Below the pieces are notes generated by a model. That model was given only the letters and a program-made list of their open reading frames with translations, had not been told where the DNA came from and made no database searches. A program made the position numbers and the translations under genes. DNA of 64,000 nucleotides, taken from the NCBI GenBank assembly GCA_030532225.1, contig JAUNLQ010000004.1, positions 1 to 64,000 on the forward strand. The letters run 5' to 3'. The first letter of the stretch is position 1. Each line of letters begins with the position of its first letter. Of the stretch, positions 34,231-34,792 are shown piece by piece. The stretch is from Bacillota bacterium. GTDB taxonomy: Bacteria > Bacillota > Clostridia > Tissierellales > Peptoniphilaceae.

Positions 34231-34421
34231 ATATTTATATTATATCAAATTTTATAGTATAAGTAAAAACATTATATGTTTTCTTATTAAATTCTTTCTA
34301 GAGGAAAGTAGAACAATTAACTAATTAGAATTTTTCTAATATTTGTTTATTTTATAAATGCCAGGGTATTTATTAGTATATCCAATACCAAATATCAAAT
34401 ATAAATTAGGGAGTGATTTTT

Positions 34422-34736
34422 TTGGAAATAAAATTAAATGATTTGGCTGTTGAGGAACTAAAGAAATTTGATGTTCCTGAAGGACAAGCCATCAGAGTAA
34501 CTATAACAGGCTTTGGCTGATCAGGTCCATCTTTTGGAATGGCTCTGGATGAGTCAAATGATGATGACACTGTTATAGAAGTGGAAGGATTAAAGTTTTT
34601 AGTAGAAAATGATCTTGCAAGTAATTATGGCGGATTTAACATTGAATACGTTGATGATTATCGTGGCAAAGGCTTTTTAATTAGCCTATTAGGAGTTGGA
34701 CAATCTGATTGTTCTTCATGTAGCTCTTGTGGTTGA
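34422..34736 (+). CDS. HesB-like selenoprotein with in-frame UGA (Sec33)
   Basis: A 104-residue protein if the in-frame TGA at 34518-34520 is read as selenocysteine. The frame starts at TTG 34422 behind GGGAG (eight-base gap), reads EIKLNDLAVEELKKFDVPEG and reaches GFG-Sec-SGPSFGMALDES, then continues to EVEGLKFLVENDL and GGFNIEYVDDY. The Sec site in GFG-U-xGPSFG with a following ALDE is the signature of the HesB-like selenoprotein family, related to the IscA/HesB Fe-S fold. Coding density is equal on both sides of the TGA and the family block spans it. The C-terminus is Cys-rich (C97, C100, C103). Function is unknown; a redox or Fe-S related role is assumed. selA, selB, selC and selD must be elsewhere. 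It is one of four plus-strand genes. Confidence 0.85.
34518..34546 (+). promoter_or_regulatory. UGA-Sec codon and candidate bacterial SECIS hairpin
   Basis: Directly after the UGA (34518-34520) the RNA can fold AGGUCCAU (34523-34530) against AUGGCUCU (34539-34546), with one U-C mismatch and an eight-base loop (CUUUUGGA). A bacterial SECIS must lie within about 40 bases downstream of the UGA inside the reading frame; this hairpin does. The apical G-U arrangement that SelB prefers was judged only by eye. Confidence 0.55.
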
Positions 34737-34763
34737 TTTTAAGCCAATAAAACTTTAAGATGG

Positions 34764-34792
34764 AAAGTAGCCTGACTTAGGCTACTTTTTTT
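34764..34792 (+). terminator. Terminator after the selenoprotein gene
   Basis: AAGTAGCC (34765-34772) pairs with GGCTACTT (34780-34787) around a seven-base loop and runs into a tract of T. It lies about 30 bases past the stop and supports the selenoprotein gene as a real transcription unit. Confidence 0.88.

Follow-up and report, generated by a model that had tools for sequence, protein, structure and literature searches.

HesB-like selenoproteins are a listed family of selenocysteine (Sec)-containing proteins with the motif UxGP and the model TIGR01911 (PMC13188914, PMC9312934). A survey of bacteria in 2006 inferred two conversions of Sec to Cys among them (PMC1794560), and in M. maripaludis the member of the family was recognised through mutagenesis and 75Se labelling, with a function called not clear (PMC11097638). 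The motif of the A-type carriers has been given as Cys-Xn-Cys-X-Cys (PMC7144353). In this study, we report a HesB-like selenoprotein gene at positions 34422-34736 of a 64,000-nucleotide stretch of Bacillota DNA (contig JAUNLQ010000004.1; hereafter the window), all the features described in it being on the plus strand. Judged by its sequence, the gene belongs to this known family. It is a new example of selenoproteins known for about 20 years and provides modest new comparative clues to their function. An earlier note on the window had proposed that an in-frame UGA hides the gene, and this is borne out by the homologues, by covariation in the selenocysteine insertion sequence (SECIS) and by the sel genes of the genome. 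We consider it almost certain that the UGA at 34518 is read as Sec and that the product is a genuine selenoprotein; a gene truncated by standard callers is thereby corrected in a checkable way.

The gene starts with TTG at 34422, encodes 104 residues and ends with a TGA at 34734-34736. The in-frame UGA at 34518-34520 specifies the predicted Sec33, which is aligned with the first Cys ligand of IscA. An ordinary open reading frame (ORF) call retained only the part starting with ATG (34539-34736; 65 residues). A ribosome-binding site, AGGGAGTG, was read from the sequence at 34408-34415, with the TTG start 6 nt beyond its end, and an intrinsic terminator, AAAGTAGCC-TGACTTA-GGCTAC-TTTTTTT, lies at 34764-34792 (shuffle z -3.84); the terminator pattern scanner did not pick it up. 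In these respects (the 104-residue frame, the shorter conventional ORF, the ribosome site and the terminator) the earlier note was accurate. It had also placed a hairpin right after the UGA, and such a hairpin is present, but its stem starts 19 nt past the UGA and not directly behind it. An Rfam scan of the locus gave nothing relevant.

The alignment of the read-through protein with IscA/HesB families extends over both sides of the UGA, and the protein matches Pfam Fe-S_biosyn (PF01521) above the gathering score. The two dedicated models were matched with E-values of 5.8e-18 (NF038090, IscA_HesB_Se) and 9.4e-16 (TIGR01911, HesB_rel_seleno), in both cases under the curated score cut-offs (65.1 vs 85 and 58.2 vs 66.35, respectively). 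It must be noted that the NF038090 cut-off was reached by none of 149 relatives and none of 398 genomes of the phylum. Among 147 homologues collected from the order and the phylum, the column of residue 33 holds TGA in 102 and TGC or TGT in the other 45, and UxGP is present in 86 of the 102 Sec homologues, the window protein having USGP at residues 33-36. Both the UGA and the part of the protein downstream of it are conserved, whereas homologues with a stop at this site and nothing conserved behind it would have spoken for termination. A homologue was found in 82 of the 149 relatives, 68 of which contain the TGA form. Strong tRNA-Sec genes were detected in 65 of these 68 genomes, the three exceptions being assemblies 71-85% complete, and in 30 of the 81 genomes without the TGA form (Fisher p 9e-15, with genomes, not independent events, as the unit). 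Direct search of genome contigs gave two distant relatives only.

The bacterial SECIS (bSECIS) apical hairpin, UGGCUC-UGGAU-GAGUCA, occupies 34540-34556, with its loop at 34546-34550. The loop begins 25 nt past the UGA, a distance that is also the most frequent one among the relatives. The energy of the 6-bp hairpin is -6.5 kcal/mol alone (shuffle z -3.7) and -7.7 with flanking pairs. According to the published bSECIS rule, the loop should have 3-9 nt with a G in its first two bases, the stem 4-16 bp, the distance from the UGA should be 16-37 nt and the energy at most -7.5 (PMC13188914); the window hairpin agrees with all of these when the flanking pairs are included. The same rule was passed by 25 of 400 coding points (6%), and therefore the evidence that counts is covariation. 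Over the six stem pairs of 66 aligned Sec sequences, 93.9% of cells are paired, and 55 cells are altered on both sides of the stem. The covariation score of the stem was 0.428 vs 0.213 in shuffles, none of 500 of which scored as high, and slid registers paired at only 27-56%. In addition, all five inner pairs are retained by 73 of 99 distinct Sec forms, as compared with a mean of 24 and a maximum of 35 in shuffles, and by none of the 44 distinct Cys forms. The Leu encoded within the hairpin is specified by CTG in 74 of the 99 Sec forms, even though roughly one Leu codon in five of these genes is CTG. To the extent that sequence data can do so, this constraint at the nucleotide level decides how the UGA is read.

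In this regard, the alternative that the UGA is a real stop codon, arises from a sequencing error or marks a decayed gene, with the 65-residue ORF or nothing being made, can be given practically no weight. The ORF caller indeed returns 34539-34736 only, and the genome, 32 contigs totalling 1.43 Mb, is 73.6% complete; against this stand the TGA common to 102 homologues, the covarying hairpin, the sel genes and the conservation of both halves. All three alternatives were set aside on the strength of the homologues and the SECIS.

All four of selA, selB, selC and selD, whose absence from the genome would speak against Sec, are present. The tRNA-Sec scored 70.3 bits and was also called by ARAGORN (tRNA-SeC, anticodon tca, UCA), and SelB, SelA and SelD scored 353.6, 554.8 and 349 bits, each above its curated cut-off. 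SelA, SelB and SelD are encoded together on one contig (C15), near glycine reductase genes. On this contig (locus L156), near selAB, GrdA (CFVU; CxxU) and GrdB (UGTCTRC; UxxCxxC) are both encoded with an in-frame TGA, and an ORF caller would truncate both. Given the tRNA-Sec, SelA, SelB and SelD and the TGA of grdA and grdB, the organism has the full Sec machinery and other classical selenoproteins.

With respect to fold, an AlphaFold2 model built on the alignment made in this analysis had a predicted local distance difference test (pLDDT) value of 87.9. The model matches the E. coli IscA structures 1s98 and 1r94, the [2Fe-2S] IscA 1x0g and SufA 2d2a, with Z of 10.5-11.5 and Foldseek E-values down to 3.9e-6. 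The same PDB entries were retrieved by sequence with the family profile, in which the Sec column is aligned with the IscA Cys. The C-terminal Cys97, Cys100 and Cys103 (CSSCSSCG, 34710-34733) lie 64, 67 and 70 residues past Sec33. Tail Cys are usual in the family at about 61-67 residues past the site, and the first one stands most often at +64 in Cys homologues and at +63 in Sec forms. Of the 102 Sec forms, 88 carry one or more tail Cys, most Sec forms having just one, and 23, including the window protein, carry at least three. Since the offsets match and tail Cys are common, the Cys-rich end is the ligand position of the family itself, enlarged to CxxCxxC in the window protein. The earlier description of this end as added must accordingly be abandoned: Cys97 is at the usual A-type carrier ligand spacing (64), and such an end is not peculiar to this gene.

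The window protein thus resembles the HesB-like family in having Sec at the first Cys position within UxGP, a SECIS just downstream, the same length, an alignment over the full domain and a Sec-decoding genome. It differs from most HesB-like selenoproteins in its three tail Cys (CSSCSSC), one being usual. It shares with IscA, SufA and ErpA (PF01521) the fold, the position of Sec33 at the first ligand Cys and the distance of 64 to the first tail Cys. Unlike them, it has Sec for Cys and a CxxCxxC tail for CxC, and cluster binding would be ascribed to it by analogy. Its arrangement, U-X63-C-XX-C-XX-C, departs from the A-type carrier motif, and for this reason we do not class it among the A-type carriers themselves but compare it with these only in its likely way of working.

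Regarding the genomic context, the window gene is solitary, being flanked by a 5'-nucleotidase-like gene and an S-layer-domain (SLH) gene, neither of which gives any hint at function. In relatives of the order, same-strand neighbours, mostly upstream, encode a TlpA-like thioredoxin (21 loci), glutaredoxin (16), CcdA/DsbD_TM (14) and a short LGT-like membrane protein (11), while the Mrp/NUBPL iron-sulfur (Fe-S) ATPase (9 loci) and 5-formyltetrahydrofolate cyclo-ligase (13) are found downstream; these counts are lower bounds because the flanks were short, and the recurrence is in part due to common descent. A same-strand cluster of CcdA, TlpA, glutaredoxin, LGT-like protein, Mrp and cyclo-ligase genes accompanies the HesB-Sec gene at loci L006-L034, L100-L107 and others. 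Furthermore, Sec has an immediately adjacent Cys (UC or CU) in 7 of 15 Sec forms without a tail Cys (L051, L052, L053, L054, L057, L058 and L134) and in none of the 88 with one, counts that are not independent, as the vicinal forms come mostly from one clade. Taken together, the neighbours and the vicinal-Cys pattern favour a protein whose Sec would need one thiol partner. Among the papers covered, from a partial literature, none dealt with the cluster or with the vicinal Cys, no search having been aimed at either.

The earlier note had described the function of the family as unknown. This understated the homology to IscA-type Fe-S carriers, although the Sec form itself has indeed no proven function (PMC11097638). 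We lean, with confidence a little above even, towards a genuine selenoprotein of the UxGP family that would most likely work as an IscA-type carrier of Fe-S clusters or iron. The decoding of the Sec, the fold and, by alignment, the ligand positions were established in silico: SelB- and SECIS-dependent decoding of UGA 34518 would yield a Sec33 protein with the IscA/SufA/ErpA fold, in which Sec33 would be the first cluster ligand and Cys97 (with Cys100 and Cys103) would stand at the C-terminal ligand position. We infer that Sec33 and the tail Cys of a dimer would then ligate an Fe-S cluster or iron, which the dimer would pass on to apo-proteins, and the selenolate may alter affinity or redox lability. 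The presence of SUF in the same genome and the nine loci with Mrp/NUBPL downstream were counted in favour of a carrier. Several points weigh against it. Disruption of the gene in M. maripaludis leaves the cells viable and able to fix nitrogen (PMC11097638), the model of the tail is poor (residues 91-104, pLDDT about 50), and the neighbours in relatives belong to thiol redox (TlpA, CcdA, glutaredoxin) as much as to Fe-S genes. It must be considered that this neighbourhood is not directly applicable to the window gene, since the latter stands alone.

The main rival, which we regard as possible but rather unlikely, is a selenol/thiol oxidoreductase on the A-type fold, in which Sec33 would form a selenenylsulfide with a tail or adjacent Cys and reduce or sense a substrate, with partners of the thioredoxin or glutaredoxin type feeding it and no cluster carried. 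The TlpA-like, glutaredoxin and CcdA genes adjoining the gene in relatives would fit such a role, as would the single tail Cys of most Sec forms and the vicinal Cys of tail-less ones, as if one thiol partner for Sec had to be kept; redox roles are also expected for most uncharacterised selenoproteins (review, PMC13188914). However, the protein lacks a UxxC or CxxU redox motif, its tail Cys are spaced just as the Fe-S ligands of IscA are, the vicinal Cys are mainly a trait of a single clade, and 8 of the 15 tail-less forms are without any adjacent Cys. A metal, metalloid or sulfide binding protein acting as a buffer or sensor, with Sec33 and CxxCxxC as soft-metal ligands, appears quite improbable. 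The tails with three or more Cys in part of the Sec forms would suit it, and soft-metal roles have been proposed for other selenoprotein families (PMC13188914), but no metal-resistance gene adjoins the gene in the window, nor was any seen among those recurrent neighbour clusters that were identified in the relatives. A broader proposal on the Fe-S carrier side, which is offered tentatively and which we consider doubtful, is that HesB-like selenoproteins would carry Fe-S clusters or iron under redox gating, their Sec being paired with one obligatory thiol, from the tail or, if the tail is lost, vicinal. In the order relatives, the CcdA-TlpA-glutaredoxin-Mrp cluster would link thiol redox to cluster delivery, the window copy being a stand-alone form with a full Cys tail. 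The role of the family becomes testable through the present comparative findings, namely a Sec at an Fe-S ligand site, one retained thiol partner, a recurring thiol-redox/Mrp cluster and, as described below, a genus in which the Sec, Cys and no-gene states all occur.

In a tree of 127 rows, the nearest relative of the window gene is a Cys homologue of the same genus (L046, genome G001; support 98/94). It shares the three tail Cys (SSCGSCSC) and has a tRNA-Sec in its genome, but differs in having a Cys codon at the site, no SECIS hairpin and other gene neighbours. Because the pair is placed beside Sec forms, a change from Sec to Cys on the L046 line is tentatively the simpler reading, based on few columns. 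A third genome of the genus, which is complete, has a tRNA-Sec and no homologue. Thus, a single genus holds the Sec, Cys and no-gene states, with tRNA-Sec kept in all three genomes.

Finally, two minor observations concern the end of the gene and its copies in relatives. The terminal TGA is followed by an in-frame TAA two codons on (34734-34742), so that reading through it would lengthen the protein by just Sec and Phe. Among the relatives, L010, L013 and L020 each have a Sec form and a Cys form in tandem, with one tail Cys in the Sec copy and three in the Cys copy, and three adjoining copies of the family, two Sec and one Cys, are present in one genome of the same family (L057, 3777-4560).
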